NCBI GenBank assembly: GCA_905235605.1
Contig: CAJOMF010000019.1
Span: 1-32,530 of the forward strand
Direction of reading: 5' to 3'
DNA: 32,530 nucleotides
Source: an uncultured bacterium
GTDB taxonomy: Bacteria > UBP6 > UBA1177
The notes beneath the pieces were generated by a model. It was not told the DNA's origin. It saw nothing but the letters and a program-made list of their open reading frames with translations, and did not search any database. The position numbers and the translations under genes are program-made. Below are positions 6,677 through 30,667 of this stretch, piece after piece. The first letter of the stretch is position 1. Every line of letters starts with the position of its first letter.

Positions 6677-8254
6677 CTACTCCTTTTCTTCCTTTTCGCC
6701 GTCGCCGTCTTCTTCAAGTTTCGAGAAATCGAAGAAGGAATCAGGTGTTACTCTGCCGATTTTGTCGCGTTTTTTGCCGTTGAGCTCATCGATATGGATC
6801 TGGAGGCTGTAACGGATCTGTCTCGCCCTTCTTATGCTGAGTTCCGCATTTTTCGCAAAAGATTCGGTATCGGGCTCGCTCTGAATGTCTGCAAGCGTGA
6901 AATAGCCCCTTTCAGCAAGGAACTGACCGAGCTCTTCGTTGATGCACTTGAGAGTCGTCGTCGGAACATCGAGTTTCTTTTCGAGTTCGTCATCGATGTT
7001 GATGACACCCATTCCTTTTTCAAGCATCATATTAGCCTGTTCGATGATCGACTCGGCTTTTTCAGCAGTAATATCGGGAAGCTCGGCCAAAACTTCGGGA
7101 GCGACCGTCGTGAGATCTTCCAAAGTCGTATATCCGAGTTTGATGAGCGAATCTGCGATGCTCTCGTCGATGCCGTCGATGAAGAGGAGTCTTCTCTTTG
7201 CCTCTTCAAGCATCATCTGCATCTGGCTCTCGCTCTGGATATCGATGCTCCAGCCGGTGAGCTGGCTTGCAAGTCTTACATTCTCGCCGCCGCGCCCTAT
7301 TGCGACCGAAAGCTGATCGTCAGGAACGATGACATCCATGCTGTGCTCCTCTTCGTCGATGATGATCTGGGAGACTTCGACAGGAGAAAGAGTGTTGCAG
7401 ATATATTTTACGGAATCCTCGTCCCACGGAATGATGTCTATTTTTTCGCCGCTGAGTTCGTGAACGACGTTCTGGATCCTAGAGCCTTTCATACCGACGC
7501 ATGCGCCGACAGGATCAACGTCGTGATCAATCGATCTGACGCTGATTTTGGAACGGTGTCCCGGATCACGCGCAACGCCTTCGATTTTAACAATTTTCTC
7601 AGCAATTTCAGGAACTTCAAGTTCAAAAAGTTTGATAAGGAACATCGTGTTGATACGGCTGAGAAGAATGTTGCAGCTCTGTCCTGACGCCGGTTTTTTG
7701 ACTTCGAGGATGAAAGCCTTGATCCTGTCGCCGGTTTTGAATCTGTCGGACGGGATCTGCTGCGTGTACGGAAGGTAAGCCTCTGTTTTGCCGATATCGA
7801 CGATGATGCCGGTTTTTTCGAAACGTCTGACCGTTCCGGTGATGATTTCGGACTGTCTGTTCTTGAACTCGTCGTAGATTATATCGCCTTCAAGAGTCTT
7901 TATCTTCTGAAGGATTACCTGCTTTGCGACCTGAGCCGCGATCCTGCCGAGTTCGTCAGCCTCCATCTTGATACCGAGCGTATCGCCCAGCTGAGCTTCC
8001 GGGTCGATCTTTTTCGCTTCGTCCAAAGAAATATCAAGCAGCGGATCTTCGACTCTGTCGGTGACAAGTCTGAAGTAGTAAGCCTCCAGATTGCCCGTCG
8101 CATCGTCGTACATGATGTCGATATCGGCTTCCGATCCGAGTTTTTTCTGAACGGCGCGGTAAAGAGCCTCTTTCACGATGTCGATGATAAGTTCCCTTTT
8201 GATACCTTTCATTTTGACCAGCTGGTCGATCAATTCCTTCAAATTAAAGTCCAT
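6677..8254 (-). CDS. nusA: transcription termination/antitermination factor NusA
   Basis: NusA (525 aa) binds RNA polymerase and nascent RNA and modulates pausing, termination and antitermination. Visible in order are the N-terminal RNAP-binding domain (MDFNLKELIDQLVKMKGI), an S1 domain (about 130-200, GTVRRFEKTGIIVDIGKTEAYLP), two KH domains (GVARDPGHRSKISV, then VGMKGSRIQNVVHEL, and later VAIGRGGENVRLASQLTGW), and two C-terminal helix-hairpin repeats (ADSLIKLGYTTLEDL and LAERGYFTLADI) of the acidic-repeat type. The ATG at 8254 shares one base with the rimP stop (TAATG) with GGAG upstream. A TTG at 8272 would add six residues but has no support. The C-terminus is highly acidic. Confidence 0.96.
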   Translation of the reverse strand: MDFNLKELIDQLVKMKGIKRELIIDIVKEALYRAVQKKLGSEADIDIMYDDATGNLEAYYFRLVTDRVEDPLLDISLDEAKKIDPEAQLGDTLGIKMEADELGRIAAQVAKQVILQKIKTLEGDIIYDEFKNRQSEIITGTVRRFEKTGIIVDIGKTEAYLPYTQQIPSDRFKTGDRIKAFILEVKKPASGQSCNILLSRINTMFLIKLFELEVPEIAEKIVKIEGVARDPGHRSKISVRSIDHDVDPVGACVGMKGSRIQNVVHELSGEKIDIIPWDEDSVKYICNTLSPVEVSQIIIDEEEHSMDVIVPDDQLSVAIGRGGENVRLASQLTGWSIDIQSESQMQMMLEEAKRRLLFIDGIDESIADSLIKLGYTTLEDLTTVAPEVLAELPDITAEKAESIIEQANMMLEKGMGVINIDDELEKKLDVPTTTLKCINEELGQFLAERGYFTLADIQSEPDTESFAKNAELSIRRARQIRYSLQIHIDELNGKKRDKIGRVTPDSFFDFSKLEEDGDGEKEEKE

Positions 8255-8733
8255 TACTTTTCTCCATTCCAAACTTCATTTATTTTTCTGACAAATCCTT
8301 TTGCTATCTTAAGTTCCGTTCCGTCTTCGGCGCGGACGACAAATTCCTCTTTGTCGTCATCGACCGAAACAAGTTCGCCCGTAAAGCGTTTTCTCCCTTC
8401 AACAAGTTCCGCAAGTTTGATTTTAAGCGTCTTTCCTATTTCATCGTGAAGATCGTCCCACCTTCTGACAGGTCTGTCGAGACCCGGCGAACTTACTTCG
8501 AGATAGTAGCGGAAAGGAAAAGGATCTTCCGCATCGAGAAAATCGCTCACTATCGGACTGAATCTGCCGCACTCGTCAAGCGAAATGCGCGTTTCAGGCG
8601 AAAGTGTGTCGAGATAAACCCTGAAAACGCCGTTCTGCCCCGTCGGCAGATCGAGTTCGACAATCTTGAACCCCATCCTGTTAGCCAACGGCTCCAATTT
8701 TAAAAAAATATCCTTAGCTCTGCCACTCCACAT
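8254..8733 (-). CDS. rimP: ribosome maturation factor RimP
   Basis: RimP (159 aa) assists 30S subunit maturation. The N-terminal alpha/beta domain contains the family signature YYLEVSSPGLDRPVRRWDD (about 80-98). The C-terminal SH3-like barrel (GKTLKIKLAELVEGRKRFTGELVSVDDD) completes the two-domain layout. The ATG at 8733 has GAGG a few bases upstream. It is the first gene of the minus-strand operon rimP-nusA-ylxR-infB-rbfA-mrcA. No strong promoter stands out upstream. The best candidate is TTGCAA with TAAAAT about 15 bases later near 8845-8871, which I regard as weak. Confidence 0.94.
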   Translation of the reverse strand: MWSGRAKDIFLKLEPLANRMGFKIVELDLPTGQNGVFRVYLDTLSPETRISLDECGRFSPIVSDFLDAEDPFPFRYYLEVSSPGLDRPVRRWDDLHDEIGKTLKIKLAELVEGRKRFTGELVSVDDDKEEFVVRAEDGTELKIAKGFVRKINEVWNGEK

Positions 8734-9057
8734 TCAACAACCTCACTCTTTGGATTAAAAACTGCGAAACCATGCAGAGAAATGAGATAAAAAGAACCTC
8801 ACGGCGAGCTATTTACCATTAAAAATGGAAAAATCAAAAAAATTTTATGGTTCAGTCACATTTTGCAATGTAGATGCTCTGAAAATTTTCAATGAAATGA
8901 CCGTAGACAACCAGAAAAATCAGGAAATATTTCAGATTGTCGAACAGGCTGTTTCGCTTTTCTTTTCCGTTATCCAAGACTATTTCTCAGAGAAGACCTA
9001 ATATTCAATTTTCTGGAAAAATCGATATCCTTAACAGTTTTTGTGTTGCCTTAAACT
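8734..9057. other. intergenic stretch between rimP and the accessory operon
   Basis: This 324-base region separates the start of rimP from the end of the LamG accessory operon, both on the minus strand. It must hold the rimP operon promoter, for which I see only a weak candidate. It also contains the 58-codon plus-strand frame described separately. I see no tRNA, clear terminator or repeat. The absence of a hairpin plus T-run after the accessory operon is notable. Confidence 0.5.
8825..9001 (+). CDS. possible small protein, 58 aa, unknown
   Basis: An ATG opens a 58-codon frame (MEKSKKFYGSVTFCNVDALKIF... ending SVIQDYFSEKT) on the strand opposite its neighbours. The predicted product is soluble and amphipathic-helical. 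Its composition (Glu/Lys/Asp balanced by Phe/Val/Ile) looks more protein-like than random AT-rich DNA, and the third codon positions are varied. No Shine-Dalgarno sequence is close to the ATG; the nearest purine-rich stretch (GGCGAG) is about 16 bases away. I know no family for it. It could equally be a chance frame in the leader region of rimP. Confidence 0.35.
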   Translation: MEKSKKFYGSVTFCNVDALKIFNEMTVDNQKNQEIFQIVEQAVSLFFSVIQDYFSEKT

Positions 9058-9900
9058 TTAGACAAACAGCATCGAACAGCCGTCGGATTTGCTATTTTCT
9101 TTGTTTTCTGCAGGAGCTTCATCAGTTGCGGGTGTTGCTGAATCTCCGTCAGCGGTATCTTCTTTAACCGCTCCGTCGGTCGGAGTTTCTGTATTTGCAG
9201 CATCGCCACCTACTTGGATTGTGCATTCGCAGCATTCTTTATCTTCGCATGAATCAAATGTTTCAATGCAGTCCGACTCTCTTTTATATTCGTTTCTCCA
9301 ATATTCAGAGCGACAGCAATCCGCGAATTCATGAACCGTTATGCTTGATTCAGTTGAATAATCGATCGGAGCATCAAGAATTTCATTGATGTCATTGATG
9401 GGTTCTTCGGAGCAGGTGTTCTTGATTCTTTCGAAGTAGGCAATACACTCATTAAGAATTTCTTCAGCGCAGATTTTTCTTGGAGTCGGCACTTCGGTTC
9501 CGCAGGTTTCGACAAGAATTTCGTTGCAGCCTTCTTCGCCGAAATAACCATCACCCGTTTTTTTCCCGTCAACGTAGTGACAATAGCATTTGTACTTGCC
9601 GTTTTTATCCACTTCGCAGGCTCCGGCGTCATTACTGCAGTTGGCAGGGATCTTTTTGCACCAGTTATCAATTTCTGCCAGACAATCTTCTTCCGTAAGC
9701 ATAGTAAATCCTTCAAAAACAGGATCTGAACCACTAAATTCCCTTCCGTTGCTGCAGACACAGTTCTGAGACAATGTTTCGTCAGAAAGTTCAAAGGAAC
9801 ATTTTCCATAGTCCGATTCACACGATACCGTTTCATTTTCCGCAAAAAGTGCCATCGCAAGCGCAAGCATTGCGATAAAAATCAAAATTTTTTTAGTCAT
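9058..9900 (-). CDS. cysteine-rich exported protein, unknown function
   Basis: Exported protein of 280 aa. The start is placed at the ATG at 9900 because GGAGG precedes it and a clean type I signal peptide follows (MTKKILIFIAMLALAMALFA, cut near ALFA-EN). Upstream codons to 9996 are in frame but overlap the preceding lipoprotein gene and lack a ribosome-binding site. The mature protein is rich in cysteine (more than 20), often as CxC or CC, which suggests many disulphides in the periplasm or at the surface. An Ala/Thr/Asp/Glu-rich tail ends in SKSDGCSMLFV. No catalytic motif is visible and I do not recognise the family. It is the last gene of a three-gene operon with the lipoprotein at 9914 and the LamG protein, so a joint surface role is likely but not shown. 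Confidence 0.75.
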   Translation of the reverse strand: MTKKILIFIAMLALAMALFAENETVSCESDYGKCSFELSDETLSQNCVCSNGREFSGSDPVFEGFTMLTEEDCLAEIDNWCKKIPANCSNDAGACEVDKNGKYKCYCHYVDGKKTGDGYFGEEGCNEILVETCGTEVPTPRKICAEEILNECIAYFERIKNTCSEEPINDINEILDAPIDYSTESSITVHEFADCCRSEYWRNEYKRESDCIETFDSCEDKECCECTIQVGGDAANTETPTDGAVKEDTADGDSATPATDEAPAENKENSKSDGCSMLFV

Positions 9901-9913
9901 GATCAGCCTCCAA

Positions 9914-10612
9914 TTATTCTTCATCTTCGTCTGAAATTTCAACATCTGCGTTTTCATCCGTGACAGGCTCTTCTTCAACAGCACTCGGATCAACAATTTC
10001 CATGTAAATTATTACACCTTTTTCTATCTCAGAGCCGTCTTCAGCTTTTTCAAACCAATGGAAACTTGTGCGTCTTACGGTTTCTCGGTTCTGTTCATTT
10101 CTAAAATATATATTCCCGTCAACACTTTGTGAAAACAATTCCATATAATCTATGTTTGCCGATTCACCGTTTACATAAGCCACGGTTTTAAAATAGTCAT
10201 TATCGGTTTCAAAAAAGATTTTCGGGCATCCCTCGAAACAATTGGTATTGGGTTCAACCGTGTAGATTTCACATCCGGCAATCTTTACCATCTTTAAAGA
10301 TTCAGGAATAAAATCGGGACATTTAACTGTTTTATAGTTTCCATATTCATCTTTTTCATTCAGGTCTCGACAATCATCCTTGCGAAAAACAAATTCATAT
10401 TCCTGCAGTTTGGCAACGATTTTTGCCACATCTTCCTTGCTTGAATTTCTGTAGCAAATTTCTCCTGCAAGCTTTTCCAGACAAGTGTTTCCGACATCTT
10501 TAGTGAAAAAGTTTGTTCCGTATGAATGAGTTGTTGTACAGGAATCATTACTACTGCAGCCTAAAAACATAAAAACGGCTGAAATTGTGATAAACAATAA
10601 TTTCTTAGTCAT
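9914..10612 (-). CDS. lipoprotein, unknown function
   Basis: Lipoprotein of 232 aa. The signal peptide MTKKLLFITISAVFMFLGC ends in a lipobox (FLGC) with the lipid-modified Cys at 19. The mature part contains several Cys (for example CTTTHS, NTCLEKL, EGCPKIF) and ends in a strongly acidic tail (VTDENADVEISDEDEE). No known domain is apparent. Its start overlaps the end of the LamG gene by 8 bases, with GGAGG lying inside the last codons of that gene, so translation is probably coupled to it. If the frameshift in the LamG gene abolishes translation of its distal part, expression of this lipoprotein may also fall. Confidence 0.8.
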   Translation of the reverse strand: MTKKLLFITISAVFMFLGCSSNDSCTTTHSYGTNFFTKDVGNTCLEKLAGEICYRNSSKEDVAKIVAKLQEYEFVFRKDDCRDLNEKDEYGNYKTVKCPDFIPESLKMVKIAGCEIYTVEPNTNCFEGCPKIFFETDNDYFKTVAYVNGESANIDYMELFSQSVDGNIYFRNEQNRETVRRTSFHWFEKAEDGSEIEKGVIIYMEIVDPSAVEEEPVTDENADVEISDEDEE

Positions 10613-13607
10613 GGTTTTCCTCCAATGAAATTGTTAAATACGTTTCGTTTGCATCATCTTTTGCGACAGCGGATAAAATGAACTTGCCATCCTCGTTTAA
10701 AACATAAGCTATGATTTTTTCTTCGTTCTTTCCGAGAGCAGAATATATTTCTTCCTCTACCTGATTTTCAGATTTTATAGTGCCTCTTTTTATTTCAGAG
10801 ACGGAATAAGGAACATTTGAGCGCAACTGATAGAATCCTTCAGCATCGTATTCAACTTCGATACTTTCTGCAAAAATTGGAACTCCGTTAATTACTGGTC
10901 TGAACACAAAAGCAACGGAATTTATCATTTTGCCGAGAGACTCTCCGTTTCCGCCGACTTCAAAAGCCTCGTTCACATCTCTTGAAATTCCGGCATATTC
11001 AAGTTCGATTGACGTCAGAGTTTCTGCTGTTTCTTTCGCTTCATTAAATTTATTCCAAATTGTCTCTTCAGATTCTTCTTCATCTTCGAATGAAGTCATT
11101 TTCCTGTTCATAACGGCTGAAATGTTTTTGTCTTTTCGAGTCAGAATCAAATAATCATCTTTGTAATTATATCTGTCATTTCCGTGGAAATTTACAGTGT
11201 TTACATCTATGTTTACATCAAAAAGTTGTTCTATAATGTGATTTGGCACAGAATCGTAGGAATAAGCAGCAAATTCTTCTGGATAATCTTTTGATAACTT
11301 GCTTGAACTTCTCTGAACACCTTTAAAATTCGGAGATTCTCTGTCTCTGACACAGTAATGGGTAAATTCAGACAAGTTGCTTTTCTGGGCTTTTGGTCCA
11401 GTCGAAACATTGTAAAAATAATCATTTTTCATATATGTTCCAGTGCAGCTTGAGTCTGAGCAGGCACATTTTTCAAGAGTCAGAAAACGGGCATCCCTGT
11501 CATCATCGCCAATAAAAGATTCGCTCCAGGAATCAATCCATGCTTTTGAAACGGTTTTATTTCTGCCTGTTAAATCATGCCAATGATCATAGTAATTATA
11601 AGTATCGTTCCAGCCACCCCATGATGAATTTTTTCTATAACCCCCGACACCATTTAATCTTGTTAAAATATTATAATAAATTTTTCCGACTTCACTCCAA
11701 CTTGTATTACTATTGCCCATCGATTTACAGGATGTTGTTTCCATCCAACGGGTATTTTGTTTGCCTAAATTCTTTGAATATGGATCTGAACCATCTTTTT
11801 TTATTTGAATATTAAAGTTATCGTTGTCTGAAGCGTAAGGAATCCAAATTTTCATGACAGTTGAAGAATATGTGCCATGTCCGGAAAGCATCAAAAGAGA
11901 ATAATTATCAGCATAGTTTTCAAATTTTTGCTGATTACCTAAATAAACTCTGCTCAGAAATTCATCATGATCCGTGTTAGCGCCGCTATTAAAAGGAAGA
12001 TTAACCGTATTGAATCTTACACACTCTATTCTTGTAGGATTGTTGTCCAAATTTATAGTATCATAAACTCCCCTCAAACATAACGCATAATCATCACCAT
12101 AAGAATCGTTGGCTCTAAACAAACCAACACTACCAACCTTGTCATATTTACCATGCAAATAAGCAAAATTTATGTCATTATAAAACTGACGAAAATCCAG
12201 TTCAGGATAAGTTGACATATTTCTCCTAAAATCATTGTGTGATGTCATAAGATAACCGCCATTTGTGTTGCTATCGTTATCTATTTCCAAATAAACATCG
12301 CCGTATAATTCCACAGAAGCTGCACGGTTTGTGCCTGTTATGGTGTGTTGAAGATTTCCGGAAAAATTATATCTGTCATAACTGTTAAGAAAAAGTCTTC
12401 TGAATTCGTTGGCTTTTGTAGGTTTTTCAAAATCAGAAAGTGCATAGATATAAGCAAAACCCGACGGAGAGTCGTTGTAGTCATCAGCTCTTTTATAGCC
12501 GAAGAACTTCTTTGCGGCACTGAAAGAAGATGGCTGAACAGTCATCGAATAAACATTGTTTATTATAGATGACGGGAAAAACAAGCTCGAGTTTGACGAA
12601 TTATAAAAACCATCGTCGTAATAATGACATTCACCCTGATGATTAGTCTGTGTGCACAAATATGCTTCCCAACCCTCGGAAACTTTTATTGATTCAATGC
12701 TTGTTTGAGGCATTGGAAGATAAATAGTAATCCCGTTAAATCCAGGTGAAGGAATCAACCAATAAGGTTGGCTGCCAAGATTATAAATAGTATCATTCAC
12801 CACTGTGCATCCGGCAGAATTCTGATCTGTGTTACAGTATCTGACTCCGCTGAATTCACTGCGGTAAAGAGCTTTGACTCCGGCTTCTGTCAAAGAAGTT
12901 GCATAAAAAAGAAGATTGTCAATTTCACCTTCAAAAAAATCTGTGCTACTACCTAATCGTCCCCCAAGAATCCATGGCTTATATGTAGAAGTAAAAGTTC
13001 CCATTACAGCAGAGATTGTGCCTGTCCAAATTTGAGAACCGTTCTTATATAATATTACTGAGGTTGTAGATTCCGATAAATTTTCAGTGGCAACAATCAC
13101 ATAATGAGTCCATGTTGTTGGTTCTGCTGATGTTGAAATATCTACGTAAGCATTTCTTATTTTCAAAATCAGTTTATTATTCCAATAACCGAAACGGAAA
13201 ACATCCCCGTTAGTGTCAGTTTGCTTCACAATATAAGCATTACTATTTGAAGCACTTGCCGGATTATTAGACTTTATCCACAAGCTGATTGAATATTTTT
13301 GTGTTGTTGTTCCCGGATTGCGAGGATCGGTAACCCCAGTTCCAAACTGGACATAATCATCAACTCCGTCAAAATATACTGCCTGATTTTCCAGACCTTG
13401 TTTAAAAATAGCACCGCCGACACGACTTCCTGTGACAGAACCAACAGAATCTTTTATTGTTCCATCCATTTTAAAATGAAGTTTAGCAGCTTCTTTTAAG
13501 TATAATTCTTTAACCTCGTCAGCTGTAATATTCCAGTCGTAAATACGGACATTGTCCATTCGTCCTTTAAAGAAATCTGTTTTTAAGGTTGAACTATCCC
13601 AATCCAT
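10605..13607 (-). CDS. LamG / caspase-like surface protein, distal part of a frameshifted gene
   Basis: A 1000-residue open frame forms the distal portion of a protein whose 5' part lies at 13808-14209 in another frame. Residues about 1-35 finish a first LamG (concanavalin-like) domain. A complete second LamG domain spans about 40-250 (KLHFKMDGTIKDSVGSV to ALYRSEF). A Cys-containing region (about 255-360, EGWEAYLCTQTNHQGECHYYDD) resembles a beta/gamma-crystallin-type strand motif. Further on, SGHG (His577) and TTSCKSMG (Cys627), about 50 residues apart, followed by Trp- and Gly-rich segments, have the His/Cys arrangement of caspase-like clan CD folds (DUF6345-like proteins are similar); this is an inference from motif layout. 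The rest is acidic with no familiar domain. The ATG at 13607 has no ribosome-binding site and is probably not a real start. Codons and base composition are visibly AT-richer than flanking core genes. Confidence 0.8.
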   Translation of the reverse strand: MDWDSSTLKTDFFKGRMDNVRIYDWNITADEVKELYLKEAAKLHFKMDGTIKDSVGSVTGSRVGGAIFKQGLENQAVYFDGVDDYVQFGTGVTDPRNPGTTTQKYSISLWIKSNNPASASNSNAYIVKQTDTNGDVFRFGYWNNKLILKIRNAYVDISTSAEPTTWTHYVIVATENLSESTTSVILYKNGSQIWTGTISAVMGTFTSTYKPWILGGRLGSSTDFFEGEIDNLLFYATSLTEAGVKALYRSEFSGVRYCNTDQNSAGCTVVNDTIYNLGSQPYWLIPSPGFNGITIYLPMPQTSIESIKVSEGWEAYLCTQTNHQGECHYYDDGFYNSSNSSLFFPSSIINNVYSMTVQPSSFSAAKKFFGYKRADDYNDSPSGFAYIYALSDFEKPTKANEFRRLFLNSYDRYNFSGNLQHTITGTNRAASVELYGDVYLEIDNDSNTNGGYLMTSHNDFRRNMSTYPELDFRQFYNDINFAYLHGKYDKVGSVGLFRANDSYGDDYALCLRGVYDTINLDNNPTRIECVRFNTVNLPFNSGANTDHDEFLSRVYLGNQQKFENYADNYSLLMLSGHGTYSSTVMKIWIPYASDNDNFNIQIKKDGSDPYSKNLGKQNTRWMETTSCKSMGNSNTSWSEVGKIYYNILTRLNGVGGYRKNSSWGGWNDTYNYYDHWHDLTGRNKTVSKAWIDSWSESFIGDDDRDARFLTLEKCACSDSSCTGTYMKNDYFYNVSTGPKAQKSNLSEFTHYCVRDRESPNFKGVQRSSSKLSKDYPEEFAAYSYDSVPNHIIEQLFDVNIDVNTVNFHGNDRYNYKDDYLILTRKDKNISAVMNRKMTSFEDEEESEETIWNKFNEAKETAETLTSIELEYAGISRDVNEAFEVGGNGESLGKMINSVAFVFRPVINGVPIFAESIEVEYDAEGFYQLRSNVPYSVSEIKRGTIKSENQVEEEIYSALGKNEEKIIAYVLNEDGKFILSAVAKDDANETYLTISLEENHD

Positions 13608-13803
13608 GCCTAGAACCCAAGATTTATCGTCCTCTTCGAAATCCCCGGCAACATCATTTAATGTTCCGCTCCAAACCTGCGAACCATTTTTATAAATAAC
13701 AACCGAAGTTGTTCCATCATTATTGTCTTCGATAGCGGAAACAACATAATGTACCCATTTGTTTTCAGGTTCGTTTCCGGCAGCAGAAACATGTGCAACT
13801 GTA

Positions 13804-13825
13804 TTTTTTATCTGTTTTTTATCTG
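13804..13825 (-). repeat. perfect 11-bp tandem duplication that breaks the LamG gene
   Basis: On the minus strand CAGATAAAAAA occurs twice in direct succession (13825-13815 and 13814-13804). The 5' frame reads ...VFQIKN, then Arg and a stop (TAA at 13810-13808). With one 11-base copy removed it reads ...VFQIKNTVAHVSAAG..., which continues in the 1000-residue frame. It also lines up with the second LamG domain of the same protein (LILKIRNAYVDIS). The full gene length from 14209 to 10605, less 11 bases, is 3594, exactly divisible by 3 and free of internal stops. Confidence 0.93.
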
Positions 13826-14209
13826 GAAAACAAGTTCTCCGCCATAATAACCGAAGAGAACGGCATTGTTGCCTGAACTAGTATGCTTTCCAATATAACA
13901 GTTGTTATTTGATGTCGAAGCCTGATCTGTGGAAAGAACCCACATTGAAATAGAATAACGTCCTCCAAACTGAGCAGGATTAAAATCTCCTTTGCCAAAT
14001 TCCAAATAATCACTTGTTCCATTGAAAACAAGTGCTTTCCCGTTTCTGCCTGTTTGATAAGTTGCAGAACTTGATCCTTTAAAAGTTCCGTTGTTGTCGC
14101 CGACGCTGTCTTCTAACGATTCTTCAAATTCAAGATGCGTCAGCAATTTTGCCGATAAAATTCCAGAGGAGCACAAAATACAAAACAACAAACAAAATAC
14201 TTTTTTCAT
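13808..14209 (-). CDS. LamG surface protein, signal peptide and first LamG domain (5' part, truncated by frameshift)
   Basis: This is the proximal part of the large LamG gene (133 codons). The ATG at 14209 opens a signal peptide (MKKVFCLLFCILCSSGILSA), followed by the first half of a LamG domain: LLTHLEFEESLEDSVGDNNGTF, GKALVFNGTSDYLEFG, RYSISMWVLSTDQAS. It ends prematurely at TAA 13810-13808 because of the 11-bp duplication at 13804-13825. With the duplication collapsed, the product would be about 1197 aa with two LamG domains, a crystallin-like segment and the His/Cys domain. LamG domains commonly bind glycans or matrix proteins, so an adhesin or surface enzyme is plausible. An alternative start four codons upstream (ATG at 14221) is possible; the ribosome-binding site here is weak. 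A good promoter lies at 14284-14312. Confidence 0.8.
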   Translation of the reverse strand: MKKVFCLLFCILCSSGILSAKLLTHLEFEESLEDSVGDNNGTFKGSSSATYQTGRNGKALVFNGTSDYLEFGKGDFNPAQFGGRYSISMWVLSTDQASTSNNNCYIGKHTSSGNNAVLFGYYGGELVFQIKNR

Positions 14210-14283
14210 TTTGATCGCCATAATATGGTTAATGAATGGCAAAATTAAAAGTTCAAAAATATCAAGGAACTCCCGATATCTTA

Positions 14284-18361: not shown

Positions 18362-19378
18362 ATGAAAAAAATTTGCATTGTTCTGGCACTTTTTACGATG
18401 TTTCTGTTTATCGGGTGCGGATCGGACGAAGATGAAAGCGATCCTGTGACCGATACGACTGATACGGCAGCAGATACAGATTCAGATTCAGGCGATTCAC
18501 TGCCTGAAGCTCCCGACACTTCCGACAGCGGTGATCCGGCCGACGATACCGAGACTTCCGATGACGCTGATTCTTCCGATGATTCCGAAACTCCTGACGA
18601 GACCGGTTCTGAAGACCGTGACGAAATTCAGGATGAGGATGAAACTCAGGACGAAGGTGGAAACGAAAATAAAGATGAAGATGAAGTTCAGGACGACACC
18701 GAAACTCCCGATGACACCGAAACCCCGGATGACACGGAAGATCCGGCTTATGATGCAGATTCTTCCAATGACGATGATGATATCGCTGCAAATCCGTGTG
18801 AAGGCGTATCGTGCGGAAACGGCGGCGTATGCTCTGCAGAAAACGGCAGCGCGGTATGCAACTGCCCTGACGGATTCTACGACAAAAACACTGCGTGCAC
18901 TGCAATAACCTCACAGAAACCGGGCTGGATCGGCGTTCAGTGGCCTTTCACGATTTCGGCTTCTGTCGGTGAAACCGATTTCAATACTCTTACAGTTTTC
19001 GGCAGAATTTACGTTGAAGGCGTCACGGGCTGCCCGCTTTCAAACCATCCGCAGCAGAGCAGCTGGAAGGCACAGCTGGGCTATAAACAAGGGACAGGCA
19101 GCGCTGAATACCCGATCGTTGCAGGAACATGGACATGGATAAACGCAGGTTTCAACGAGGCGTTCACCTGCGACGACGGCAACCAGAATCACGAATATAT
19201 GGCTTCATTCCCGGCCACTGAAGCGGGAAACTTCATATATATTTTCAGATTTTCACTTGATAACGGCGCAACATGGTGGTATGCCGACAAAGGCAAGGGT
19301 CCTGACAACAGTGATCTTCCTAGACCCGATTTCATAACATCTGAAACGAACCATCCCGGAAAGGCGACAATCAACTAA
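18362..19378 (+). CDS. lipoprotein with acidic linker and EGF-like motif
   Basis: Lipoprotein of 338 aa. The signal peptide MKKICIVLALFTMFLFIGC has its lipobox Cys at 19. Residues about 22-140 form a long Asp/Thr/Glu/Ser/Pro linker. An EGF-like cysteine motif follows (NPCEGVSCGNGGVCSAENG, CNCPDGF, CTAI; six Cys). The last ~160 residues are a folded domain beginning KPGWIGVQWPFTISASVGE, with aromatic residues and two Cys, beta-rich in appearance and of unknown family. The linker probably lifts the domain off the membrane. GAGG lies 8 bases before the ATG. Possible roles are surface binding or a cell-envelope accessory; nothing enzymatic is visible. It belongs to a group of similarly built lipoproteins in this window (19482, 22848, 26438). 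Confidence 0.85.
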   Translation: MKKICIVLALFTMFLFIGCGSDEDESDPVTDTTDTAADTDSDSGDSLPEAPDTSDSGDPADDTETSDDADSSDDSETPDETGSEDRDEIQDEDETQDEGGNENKDEDEVQDDTETPDDTETPDDTEDPAYDADSSNDDDDIAANPCEGVSCGNGGVCSAENGSAVCNCPDGFYDKNTACTAITSQKPGWIGVQWPFTISASVGETDFNTLTVFGRIYVEGVTGCPLSNHPQQSSWKAQLGYKQGTGSAEYPIVAGTWTWINAGFNEAFTCDDGNQNHEYMASFPATEAGNFIYIFRFSLDNGATWWYADKGKGPDNSDLPRPDFITSETNHPGKATIN

Positions 19379-19420
19379 ACAGTTTTTCCTCTTCACCGGC
19401 AAAAACATCTCATTCTTTCC

Positions 19421-19448
19421 TTGCCTTTTGTTCAAGAATCATTAGAAT
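19421..19448 (+). promoter_or_regulatory. sigma-70 promoter of the type-3 repeat lipoprotein
   Basis: TTGCCT (19421-19426), 16 bases, TAGAAT (19443-19448), six bases, then six T. Hexamers and spacer length are identical to those of the promoter at 18300, with only a few differences up to the start codon. Confidence 0.75.
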
Positions 19449-19481
19449 TTTTTGTTTTTTGACTTTTATTGAGGTTTCGAG

Positions 19482-20546
19482 ATGAAAAAAACAGTTATTT
19501 TCGCGATTTTTCTTTCATTTTTCTTTTTCGGCTGCCTGGAAACAACCAAACTCGTAAGTTCAGGAACTTTCGAGAACGAGGACAGCGATCCGCAGAAGGA
19601 TGATCAGGACGAAGTATCGGATGATCCCGATGATGAAGAGACTGACAGCGACCGTCCGGAAAGAGACGATGACCGCGAAAGACCTTCAAACGACGACAGC
19701 GGCGAAGGCGAAGAAGACGGATGGAACGGCGAAGAAGACGATCCCGATGAAAGACCTGACAGCGACCGTCCGGAAAGAGACGAAGACAGACCGCTACAGG
19801 ACGAAGACTCTCCTGTAAACGATGATGATACCACGGCAGACAGTGACGGAGACGGAGTTATCGACAGCGAGGACGGATGTCCTGCTGATCCCGCAAAAAC
19901 CGAGCCCGGAGTGTGCGGATGCGGGGTCGCCGATGAAGGTGATTTGGACGGAGACGGGATCCTCGACTGCGTGGACAACTGCAAAAACGATAAAAACGAG
20001 GACCAGAACGATCTTGACGGTGACGGAATCGGTGATGCCTGCGACGACGATATCGACGGTGACGGTGTAAAAAATATCGAAGACAACTGCGTTATGATCT
20101 ACAATCCGAAAGAAGGGAACATCTTCTCTCAGAAACAGCCCGACCTTGACGGAGACGGCATAGGCGATGCCTGCGACGACGACATCGACGGTGATAATAT
20201 TCCTAACGGCGAAGACAACTGTCCGAACGACGCAAATGCCGATCAGACCGACCTCGACGGCGATGGTGTTGGGGATGCCTGCGACGTATGCCCGGATGAC
20301 GCGGCAAAATCGATCGATGCAGGTGTATGCGGATGCGGAGTTCCGGAAACAGATACCGACGGTGACGGAGTTCTTGACTGCAAGGACAACTGCATCAATG
20401 TTTTCAACGGTTCGCAGCTCGACAGCGACGGCGACGGAATCGGAGACGCATGCGATGAACATCCTTTTGAAAAAGACACACCGGAACCGACAACAGATCC
20501 GAGTGACCCGAGCGACCCGACTGACCCGAGTGACCCGAGTGAATAA
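19482..20546 (+). CDS. lipoprotein with thrombospondin type 3 calcium-binding repeats
   Basis: Lipoprotein of 354 aa. The signal peptide MKKTVIFAIFLSFFFFGC ends at a lipobox Cys (18). An acidic/Arg linker (about 30-120) contains a repeated DSDRPERD block. From about 120 to 330 it carries thrombospondin type 3-like repeats: DSDGDGVIDSEDGCP, DLDGDGILDCVDNC, DLDGDGIGDACDDD and further copies. Each has the DxDGDG loop known to bind calcium, and cysteines are spaced for disulphides. The tail is DPSDPSDPTDPSDPSE, from a 9-bp DNA repeat. A stiff calcium-stabilised rod anchored in the outer membrane is the expected form. The gene has its own promoter (19421-19448) and is followed by a stem-loop at 20560. 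Confidence 0.88.
   Translation: MKKTVIFAIFLSFFFFGCLETTKLVSSGTFENEDSDPQKDDQDEVSDDPDDEETDSDRPERDDDRERPSNDDSGEGEEDGWNGEEDDPDERPDSDRPERDEDRPLQDEDSPVNDDDTTADSDGDGVIDSEDGCPADPAKTEPGVCGCGVADEGDLDGDGILDCVDNCKNDKNEDQNDLDGDGIGDACDDDIDGDGVKNIEDNCVMIYNPKEGNIFSQKQPDLDGDGIGDACDDDIDGDNIPNGEDNCPNDANADQTDLDGDGVGDACDVCPDDAAKSIDAGVCGCGVPETDTDGDGVLDCKDNCINVFNGSQLDSDGDGIGDACDEHPFEKDTPEPTTDPSDPSDPTDPSDPSE
19642..19783 (+). repeat. 28-bp direct repeat pair inside the lipoprotein linker
   Basis: A perfect 28-base repeat occurs at 19642-19669 and 19756-19783, 114 bases apart, encoding TDSDRPERDD and PDSDRPERDE. It lies in the low-complexity linker, where unequal recombination could change linker length by 38 codons without a frameshift. 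Confidence 0.8.
20496..20540 (+). repeat. five tandem 9-bp units encoding DPS/DPT
   Basis: Units of the form GACCCGAGT start at 20496, 20505, 20514, 20523 and 20532, with one to three base differences among them. They encode the C-terminal Asp-Pro-Ser/Thr repeats of the lipoprotein just before its stop. Copy changes would be in frame. Confidence 0.85.
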
Positions 20547-22832: not shown

Positions 22833-22847
22833 ATTATGGAGATCAAA

Positions 22848-24716
22848 ATGAAGAAATCCCTTGTTTTCACGGCATTTGTGCTGATTTTTGCAGTTTCGTG
22901 CAGCAACAGCACATCAAAAATCACACCGGACAGCGATCCGTGGAGCGAAGACAACGATCAGATTACGGAAAACGATAATGATACGGAAACACCGGACGGC
23001 GGCGATACGGACTACGACGGAGATACCGTTGACACAGAAACTCCGGACAAAGAGAACGACGATGACGGCACGATACCTGATGAAGACACTCCTGAAGAGC
23101 ATCAAGTCCCGTCGACACACAAATGCAGGGAAGTTTCAGACAGCATGCCGGAAAGCGCTCCGGTTACCTCTGTCGAAGGGCTCGGTTACGAATCCGGTTT
23201 CATCTATCTCGAAGAAAATGAATACATTCTCAGTAACCGCAGCAATAAAAGCGGCAGAGTAAAAATGTGGTACAACTTCCAGCCGGCAGATGAAAATCCG
23301 GAAACAAAACCGCTTTTTGTTTTCTACAACGGCGGTCCAGGCTCCTCTTCGGCACTTGTTTTCCTTTACAACACGGCAAAAAGGACAGCCGATCAGGCAT
23401 GTTCCGAAAAAGGTTTCGCTGAAAACGAAACGAGCTGGACACAGTTGGGGAATCTGCTTTACATCGATGCACGTCAGACCGGTTTTTCCTATGGAATTAT
23501 TGATGATCCGACAAATGCAAACAGCCGTTCGTCATATTTTTCGACTTCAAATTTCAACGTTTTTGCAGACGCGGCAGACTTTATCCGCGTGATCTTGCGC
23601 TTTTTGGAAAACCATCCGAAAATAAAGGCTAACCCTGTGATCCCGGCAGGTGAAAGCTACGGAGGAACAAGAACGACCGCGCTTATCAACATCCTTCTCA
23701 ATGTCGCCGACTATGCTGAAAACAACAGGGTTTTCTACGACGAAGCGCTTTTTAACGAGATCGCACGCCACTTCCGGGAAATTGATCCGTCGATAACCGG
23801 AATGCCCTCAAAAACAGACGTTGTAAAACAGTTCGGCAGACAGATCATGATCCAGCCGCTCGTAATGGGACAGAAACAGATGGATGCAGCAGGTGAACTT
23901 CTTGAACTGAGCAGCAGCCCGATGTACACGATCCAGCAGGAGACAGGGCAGATATACAGACCATGCGGAAATTCATGGAACTGCTCGAAATACAACAACG
24001 CGATAAATTATGTCGAGAACGCAGACCGCGACATCTATTCATACCGCAGGCCGTATAACTGGCTTTTCGACTACACCGATGTCGGAACAGCGAAAATGCT
24101 CCAGATGCCGATGTTCGAAGAGTTCATAATGAACGATCCGACAAAAATAAACGAGCTTTACGCGGAAAACAGGTCGGCAGAAGGTGCGTTCAGATACAAC
24201 AGTGAAAACGGATACTTAAGAAATTTTGCAGCGTTTGACACTCTTAACAAAGTTCCCGAAATTGAAAAAACTGTCATTCTGGCACGTATCAGCCAGAGGA
24301 ACACCCATCCTCTTTCGAGCGGGAATCTGGACAGCTTTTTCGGAGAACTCCCGGCTTACGATGAGTATCATGTAGATTTGTATTATCCGATAACTTCAAC
24401 ATTTTACTATGCTGCTGTAACCCCTTACAGCGATGTCAACGGTGAAATGTTCCTTGAAAACATAAAAACCGCTAAAACTTTCATAACCCAGGCTGAAGAG
24501 GATATCGTCATCTACGCAAAAGGAATTCCTGAAGCTGCAAAAAGTTTCAGCAGCGTTTCGGGAGTAGACACAGAAGACAACTCTTTCACAGTTCATTTCA
24601 AAGAGGGAGAGTCTGCGAAAGTCACATTCCCGTTCTATCCCGAAAGTTCTCACAGTGTCTCTGTGAACCAGCCGGTGAAATTCTTCAACGACGTTAAGAA
24701 CTGGCTGGAAGAATAG
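22848..24716 (+). CDS. lipoprotein of the serine carboxypeptidase family (peptidase S10)
   Basis: Exported lipoprotein of 622 aa. The signal peptide MKKSLVFTAFVLIFAVSC has its lipobox Cys at 18, followed by an acidic Asp/Thr/Glu/Pro linker to about residue 90. The enzyme domain has the S10 hallmarks: NGGPGSSS (oxyanion region, about 161-168), TGFSYG, catalytic Ser270 in GESYGGTR, a candidate Asp552 in AEEDIVIYAKG, and candidate His602 in SSHSVSVNQP, which matches the family's GH.VP.DQP element. Such enzymes remove C-terminal residues from peptides; here it would act in the periplasm or on the outer surface. The ATG at 22848 is preferred over 22836 because GGAG lies 6 bases upstream of it. A GCGGCGG-bounded repeat begins at its stop codon. 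Confidence 0.88.
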   Translation: MKKSLVFTAFVLIFAVSCSNSTSKITPDSDPWSEDNDQITENDNDTETPDGGDTDYDGDTVDTETPDKENDDDGTIPDEDTPEEHQVPSTHKCREVSDSMPESAPVTSVEGLGYESGFIYLEENEYILSNRSNKSGRVKMWYNFQPADENPETKPLFVFYNGGPGSSSALVFLYNTAKRTADQACSEKGFAENETSWTQLGNLLYIDARQTGFSYGIIDDPTNANSRSSYFSTSNFNVFADAADFIRVILRFLENHPKIKANPVIPAGESYGGTRTTALINILLNVADYAENNRVFYDEALFNEIARHFREIDPSITGMPSKTDVVKQFGRQIMIQPLVMGQKQMDAAGELLELSSSPMYTIQQETGQIYRPCGNSWNCSKYNNAINYVENADRDIYSYRRPYNWLFDYTDVGTAKMLQMPMFEEFIMNDPTKINELYAENRSAEGAFRYNSENGYLRNFAAFDTLNKVPEIEKTVILARISQRNTHPLSSGNLDSFFGELPAYDEYHVDLYYPITSTFYYAAVTPYSDVNGEMFLENIKTAKTFITQAEEDIVIYAKGIPEAAKSFSSVSGVDTEDNSFTVHFKEGESAKVTFPFYPESSHSVSVNQPVKFFNDVKNWLEE

Positions 24717-26437: not shown

Positions 26438-27199
26438 ATGAAAAGATTTTCACTTATTACAGTTTTGATTCTTTCTCTTTTCTTCTTTGTTTCATGCGGC
26501 AGCGACGAGGATGAAGGTGATACGACCGTCGATACAGGCGACTCTCAGAACGACACCGATACGGGCGACACTCAGACAGAACCGACAGACACGGGCGACA
26601 CTGATCCATCAGAGCCGACAAACCCGACCGATCCCACAGAACCTACTGACCCAGGCGAACCGACAAATCCCGCGGATCCAACCGATCCGACTGAGCCAAG
26701 TGAGCCGGCTGAACCGACCGAGCCGACGGACACTGACGCCGGGGATTGTGCAGTTATCAGCATCGGAACAATGAAAAACGACGGTTCAATGGACAGTTAC
26801 GCCTACTATTCAGGCTCATATCAGCCCGGAACAGGCACAGCAACAGCTGACGAGATAGATTTCGAAATCTACAGCGAAACAACAGCCGGGACCTACGATC
26901 TGACCGAAGGCTACAATGTTTCCTACAGCTCGTGCGCTCAGTGCATCCTTGTTTACGAAGACATCATGTACGACAATGAAGGCTACTTCGAAGGCGCAGG
27001 CAAATACTATTATCCTGAAAGCGGCACAATGACCGTAAACTCTTTCTCCTACGATTCAGGTTCTCTCAACGTCACGCTTGAAAACGTAAAACTCATTCAG
27101 GTCACAAGGGAATACGACCCTGAAAGTGACAGATTCAAATCCGAACCGGTTGAAAACGGAAGCTGCATCGTCATTCAGAATACGACCTTGAACATCTGA
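26438..27199 (+). CDS. lipoprotein with Thr/Asp/Pro/Glu repeat linker
   Basis: Lipoprotein of 253 aa. The signal peptide MKRFSLITVLILSLFFFVSC has its lipobox Cys at 20. Residues about 23-105 are an extreme low-complexity linker of DTGDT, then TDPTEPTDPGEPTNP-type repeats, with Pro at every third residue over much of its length. The C-terminal ~145 residues form a folded domain (CAVISIGTMKNDGSM, EIDFEIYSETTAGTYDLTEG, YSSCAQCILVYED, ENGSCIVI) rich in aromatic residues with four Cys, of unknown family and probably beta-structured. AAGGAGG precedes the ATG. There is no room for a promoter between the ferredoxin terminator and this gene, so it may depend on readthrough. Confidence 0.85.
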   Translation: MKRFSLITVLILSLFFFVSCGSDEDEGDTTVDTGDSQNDTDTGDTQTEPTDTGDTDPSEPTNPTDPTEPTDPGEPTNPADPTDPTEPSEPAEPTEPTDTDAGDCAVISIGTMKNDGSMDSYAYYSGSYQPGTGTATADEIDFEIYSETTAGTYDLTEGYNVSYSSCAQCILVYEDIMYDNEGYFEGAGKYYYPESGTMTVNSFSYDSGSLNVTLENVKLIQVTREYDPESDRFKSEPVENGSCIVIQNTTLNI

Positions 27200-30084: not shown

Positions 30085-30486
30085 ATGTTTGAGGCTTTTG
30101 CAGTCGTTCAGATAGTTATCTGCATACTGCTTGTCGTAATAATCCTTCTTCAGGAAGGTAAAAAAGGAATGGGAGCTATTTTCGGCGGTTCGAGTAGTTC
30201 TGTTTTCGGTGCAAGAGGCGCCGGCAACATACTCACCAAGATCACTTCCGTTCTTGCGATCCTCTTCATGCTCAACTCTGTCTGGATGTCCTACATTTCA
30301 AGCAGTGACAAATCGGTTGTAAGAATCGAACAGCAGGCTGAGAAAACGACTCCGGCTCCGGTTGCGGCACAGCCCGCGGAAGAAAAGAAACCGGAAGCTG
30401 TTGAGCAGAAAAACGAGCAGAAAGAAGAAGCTCCTGTCGAAGAACAGAAACCTGCTGAAGAGCAGAAAGAAGCTCCGGCTGAATAA
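30085..30486 (+). CDS. secG: preprotein translocase subunit SecG
   Basis: SecG (133 aa), the small auxiliary membrane subunit of the SecYEG translocon. The first ~80 residues hold two membrane segments (VVQIVICILLVVIILLQEG and ILTKITSVLAILFMLNSVW) with the conserved LLQEGKKGMGAIFGGSSSSVFGARGA loop between. The rest (about 90-133) is an extra Glu/Lys/Gln/Pro-rich low-complexity tail (EEQK and PAEE repeats), longer than in most SecG proteins. The ATG at 30085 is chosen because GAGG lies five bases upstream; ATG 30073 or TTG 30070 would overlap that site. A leucine tRNA follows, as in E. coli and relatives. A short hairpin (30498-30511) with a poor T-tract lies after the stop. Confidence 0.93.
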   Translation: MFEAFAVVQIVICILLVVIILLQEGKKGMGAIFGGSSSSVFGARGAGNILTKITSVLAILFMLNSVWMSYISSSDKSVVRIEQQAEKTTPAPVAAQPAEEKKPEAVEQKNEQKEEAPVEEQKPAEEQKEAPAE

Positions 30487-30548: not shown

Positions 30549-30636
30549 GCAGGAGTGGTGGAATTGGTAGACACGTAAGACTAAGGATCTTATGCCTATT
30601 GTTGGTGTGGGGGTTCGAGTCCCCCCTTCTGCACCA
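30549..30636 (+). tRNA. tRNA-Leu with AAG anticodon
   Basis: An 88-nt class II tRNA with encoded CCA. The acceptor GCAGGAG pairs with CTTCTGC (one G-T pair). The D arm is GTG/CAC with the AATTGGTAGA loop. The anticodon stem TAAGA/TCTTA encloses the 7-nt loop CTAAGGA, so T33 is followed by anticodon AAG (30586-30588). A long variable arm (about 30596-30610) and the T arm GGGGG-TTCGAGT-CCCCC complete it. Length, long variable arm and position beside secG fit leucine. The bacterial norm for this box is GAG; AAG is rare and implies inosine at position 34 or an unmodified A reading CUU. No separate promoter is obvious, so it may be cut from the secG transcript. Confidence 0.93.
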
Positions 30637-30667
30637 TCTTTTATTTTTTCAATATACTGGATTTTGA

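Follow-up and report, generated by a model that had tools for sequence, protein, structure and literature searches.

The gene under study lies in a stretch of 32,530 nucleotides (the window, meaning the whole DNA that was analysed) from an uncultured bacterium of the UBP6 genus UBA1177, for which the rumen is the reported source (PMC7820578). This tRNA-Leu(AAG) gene spans positions 30549..30636 on the forward strand (88 nt, CCA encoded), is called as tRNA-Leu(aag) with exactly these boundaries by ARAGORN and, as one of the 37 tRNAs of the genome, scores 55.3 bits (E 3.4e-11) with the Rfam tRNA model. The ORF directly upstream is secG (30085..30486, +), from which it is separated by 62 bp, and directly 3' of it there is a T-rich tract (30639..30652, +) at which a secG-tRNA transcript may plausibly end. 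The acceptor stem (GCAGGAG/CTTCTGC), the discriminator A73, the anticodon stem (TAAGA/TCTTA) and the anticodon loop are all intact, and the type II fold with a long variable arm, together with A73 and CCA, is that of a bacterial tRNA-Leu. Single-strand folding of the unmodified transcript gave z = -0.70. The loop, CUAAGGA for bases 32-38, lies at 30581-30587. An earlier note on this DNA had pointed out the AAG anticodon within 5-bp stems and secG as the neighbour, both of which hold, but it placed the critical base at 30586, which is G37, A34 being 30583.

Elsewhere in the window, a LamG-like protein is apparently split into two ORFs (13808-14242 and 10605-13607, within 10605-14242 on the reverse strand), possibly by a frameshift or a stop. 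Several predicted lipoproteins on the forward strand (18362-20546, 22836-24716 and 26438-27199) have low-complexity Asp/Thr/Pro/Glu tracts behind the signal peptide, and one of them contains thrombospondin-type-3-like repeats.

The leucine tRNA set and conservation of the AAG anticodon

The draft genome (G000; 2.67 Mb, 136 contigs, 96% complete) encodes leucine tRNAs with the anticodons UAA, UAG, CAA, CAG and AAG. A separate tRNA-Leu(GAG), which according to the earlier note would have refuted the observation if the AAG gene were unexpressed, was found neither by tRNA calls nor by a GAG pattern search of this genome, and none is present in any UBP6 genome searched. tRNA-Leu(AAG) is thus the sole isoacceptor found that is dedicated to CUU and CUC, which make up 63% of leucine codons (CUU 38%, CUC 25%, CUA 1.4% and CUG 20% of 4177 leucine codons, in a sample of ~50,000 codons). 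In ten window genes, CUU and CUC account for 143 and 134 of 394 leucine codons, and in infB CUC (23) outnumbers CUU (13). CUA is nearly absent, although it would be readable by both the UAG tRNA and the presumed IAG tRNA.

That the A in the anticodon results from faulty sequencing or assembly, or that the gene is a dead copy accompanied by a genuine GAG tRNA elsewhere, would be conceivable in a draft of 136 contigs with one demonstrable gap. However, an identical 88-mer (100% identity) is found in 12 congeneric genomes, and the AAG anticodon is kept in diverged relatives (85-98% identity), including every relative at the family or order level with a complete copy. The anticodon stem pair 27-43, U-A here, becomes C-G in relatives and the pair 5-68 changes from G-U to A-U, compensatory changes that leave the stems intact. 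Relatives without a full copy, one of which has only a 42-base partial match while the rest are mostly incomplete genomes, also have no GAG tRNA. The identity among congeners and the retention of AAG in diverged relatives exclude a sequencing error, which the earlier note had left as a way out, and make the combined scenario of error or dead copy vanishingly improbable. AAG is therefore fixed across this lineage (UBP6 families f1-f3). The secG neighbour is likewise kept, at 20/21 loci of UBP6 relatives; beyond UBP6 it recurs in several Cloacimonadota, in a small number of further AAG genomes and in two with GAG. It is shared with E. coli leuU, a tRNA-Leu(GAG) gene that also lies beside secG and differs from the present gene in its anticodon. 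This common neighbour indicates that the secG-tRNA locus is old. One record entitled uncultured Spirochaetales bacterium RUG11946 (L191) matches the window flank over ~4 kb, as UBP6 records do, and is probably misnamed.

The tadA cluster and the probable state of A34

Wobble inosine in bacteria is usually taught as being restricted to arginine, with lactic acid bacteria as the exception. In the assembly analysed here, TadA, tRNA-Arg(ACG) and all four Ser tRNAs were not found. Mollicutes have lost TadA and Arg(ACG), and a similar loss in the UBP6 lineage would leave A34 uneditable. In congeners, however, these genes form a conserved cluster, Ser(UGA)-Ser(GCU)-Arg(ACG)-tadA-Ser(CGA)-Ser(GGA), which is found in families f1 and f2 (G007:C3:82088-83079 in L082 and L114, equivalents in L068-L088), whereas in f3 the Ser neighbours of tadA are retained without an adjoining Arg(ACG). 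The tadA block of G007 occupies bases 8089-9080 of locus L158. Our genome can be aligned to this locus as far as 8053 (contig C96) and again from 9436 (contig C103). The ~300-350 bases at each of the two contig ends (G000:C96:1-314 and G000:C103:1-353) have no match to the congener; these ends may be chimeric, and a 4.5S-RNA-like stretch begins near C96:280. Ser tRNAs are indispensable to a cell, and the disappearance of all four of them together with tadA and Arg(ACG) points to an assembly gap at the cluster. Judging by these alignments, tadA and Arg(ACG) are missing here only through that gap, and their loss from the lineage, which is very improbable, was rejected. The one 21-bit match to TadA in our genome belongs to what appears from its sequence to be a dCMP-deaminase-like protein. 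TadA is thus encoded in the lineage, as seen in the congener genomes (our own draft being gapped at the locus); its catalytic HAE/PCxxC motifs are intact, and comparison with a structural database places the TadAs of S. pyogenes (2nx8) and S. aureus (2b3j) among its best-matching relatives.

The most probable reading, to which we assign a probability of about 0.86, is that a functional single-copy tRNA-Leu(AAG) has replaced tRNA-Leu(GAG), that the TadA of the lineage edits A34 to inosine in both this tRNA and Arg(ACG), and that the resulting IAG anticodon reads CUU and CUC. In this scheme, TadA encoded next to Arg(ACG) would deaminate both substrates, tRNA-Leu(IAG) would read CUU and CUC, with CUA as a further possibility, and the UAG and CAG tRNAs would cover CUA and CUG. 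Deamination and the ensuing decoding are what we infer. The loops of Leu (CUAAGGA) and Arg(ACG) (CUACGGA) in UBP6 differ solely at position 35; C32, U33, A34, G36 and A38 are shared, making the Leu loop a TadA-compatible one. Base 35 makes a single hydrogen bond to TadA (PMC11472039). The closest precedent comes from Streptococcus, in which conversion of tRNA-Leu(AAG) to IAG by TadA has been demonstrated (PMC11472039; PMC13249217). As in UBP6, AAG stands in place of GAG in S. pyogenes and both TadA and Arg(ACG) are present; editing of Leu(AAG) by the S. pyogenes enzyme is complete both in vivo and in vitro, and the reported consensus of edited loops, YUAMGRA, covers the UBP6 loop CUAAGGA (PMC11472039). 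The lineages are unrelated, however, and editing in UBP6 is a prediction from sequence. The S. pyogenes Leu and Arg loops differ at positions 35 and 37, whereas those of UBP6 differ at 35 only, and E. coli TadA does not edit S. pyogenes Leu(AAG) (PMC11472039). When an AAG anticodon is placed in an orthogonal tRNA that has been given the loop of E. coli tRNA-Arg, E. coli TadA edits it in part, and changes at 32, 37 or 38 abolish editing (PMC11066159).

Alternatively, A34 might stay unmodified, the tRNA reading CUU, and CUC being read weakly by the same tRNA and by Leu(UAG) through extended wobble; a Leu(UAG) with cmo5U might even read CUC unaided. Unmodified A34 tRNAs do exist, as in O. oeni, where inosine occurs in only two of four A34 tRNAs (PMC11066159), and the TadAs of AAG genomes have no diagnostic residue (see below). 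However, an AAG tRNA assayed in E. coli reads CUU ~3 times better than CUC even though it is partly inosine-modified (PMC11066159). In this genome, the quarter of leucine codons that are CUC, a codon more frequent than CUU in infB, would be poorly served by a tRNA with CUU as its main codon. This, together with a Leu loop that is the lineage's own TadA substrate loop except for base 35, makes an unmodified A34 unlikely, and I34 is most likely the state of tRNA-Leu(AAG).

Editing of Leu(AAG) would imply that TadA specificity has widened, which the earlier note had proposed alongside decoding with unmodified A, and acceptance of a second tRNA by TadA holds up as the probable explanation. A search for accompanying substrate-loop changes found no diagnostic residue: none of 167 TadA columns (numbered after E. 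coli TadA) separates the TadAs of 16 A34 genomes from those of 26 G34 genomes, the best p being 0.0027, uncorrected. Widened specificity is thus not readable from the sequence of the enzyme, and a residue signature of AAG genomes was discarded. A GGV-SLY-RLNHRV stretch common to UBP6 and S. pyogenes TadA at first suggested convergence, but G325, which is a GAG genome, has a close variant of it. A requirement for G37 in Arg(ACG) was dismissed as well, with no clear link (10/15 AAG genomes outside UBP6 vs 13/25 GAG genomes, by hand count).

Distribution and loop classes of Leu(AAG)

In a pattern survey of 386 genomes, Leu A34 was found in 40, Leu G34 in 214 and both in none, the first two counts being lower bounds since the pattern misses some tRNAs. 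Counted by genus, A34 occurs in 25/323 and G34 in 193/323, and zero overlap would have a chance of ~1e-10 under independence (a hand estimate that ignores relatedness). A34 and G34 are mutually exclusive in the surveyed genomes. A34 is present in four families of the UBP6 phylum and in at least 14 families outside it, plus Cloacimonadota, and one family (f15) is mixed, with A34 in G186 and G34 in G038 and G325. The UBP6-type anticodon arm, used as a query against named genomes, retrieved 63 records, mostly Candidatus Cloacimonadota, and ARAGORN confirmed Leu(aag) at 61 of the loci. Two Cloacimonadota records (L182 and L214) have the Leu(AAG) arm twice on one contig each.

According to a published survey, Leu(AAG) is nearly confined to Bacilli, with Mycoplasma and Prochlorococcus as additional cases (PMC13249217); its occurrence in UBP6, Cloacimonadota and at least 14 other families shows this view to be too narrow. 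Our search of open-licence papers yielded no report of Leu(AAG) in Cloacimonadota. The departure from the arginine-only rule that the earlier note had seen in this gene is thus real, but not exceptional, given the Streptococcus precedent and the other families: the phenomenon is known in kind from Streptococcus and other Lactobacillales, while the lineages and the breadth appear new within the open-licence literature. In Lactobacillales, as here, AAG and GAG exclude each other and CUU and CUC are major leucine codons (PMC13249217). The codon shift reported there (PMC13249217) has no counterpart between the AAG and GAG genomes sampled here, in whose CUU and CUC use no shift was found (p 0.26 and 0.78), and such a shift was abandoned as a mark of AAG genomes.

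The Leu(AAG) loops fall into two classes. Class 1, (C/U)UAAGGA, is found in UBP6 f1-f3, in the Cloacimonadota-type tRNAs and in nine families outside; class 2, UUAAGGG, in f17, f168, f213, f15, f135 and f4. Where GAG tRNAs were read over their whole length, the loop is UUGAGG(G/U), with U32 in every GAG match listed, and the class 2 loop is the product expected from a bare G34-to-A change of a GAG arm. The class 1 arm core matches that of the same genome's UAG tRNA at 7-10 of 10 positions, compared with 4-7 for GAG vs UAG (p 0.00015), but in the rest of the molecule class 1 tRNAs resemble UAG no more than GAG tRNAs do (p 0.97). The arm core fits simple descent from Leu(UAG) but the body does not, and class 1 may have originated either in that way or by converging on a loop favourable to TadA. 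A tentative and rather doubtful extension is that the many origins of Leu(AAG) followed two routes: class 1 tRNAs, with a UAG-like core and C32/A38 as in Arg(ACG), would be good TadA substrates, and class 2 tRNAs would be GAG arms with G34 changed to A. Some class 2 lineages might then read CUU and CUC through an A34 left unmodified or by means of a TadA adapted in another way.

On this evidence, Leu(AAG) is a switch that recurs among bacteria, becomes fixed in lineages and is incompatible with GAG. The TadAs of AAG lineages are predicted to accept UAAG loops besides UACG loops, and such wider acceptance would widen the set of editable mRNA sites, as in S. pyogenes. How the specificity of TadA evolved can be tested directly on the set of AAG and GAG genomes and on the two loop classes and, if true, the two-route origin would provide a natural series for the widening of TadA specificity toward that of eukaryotic ADAT.
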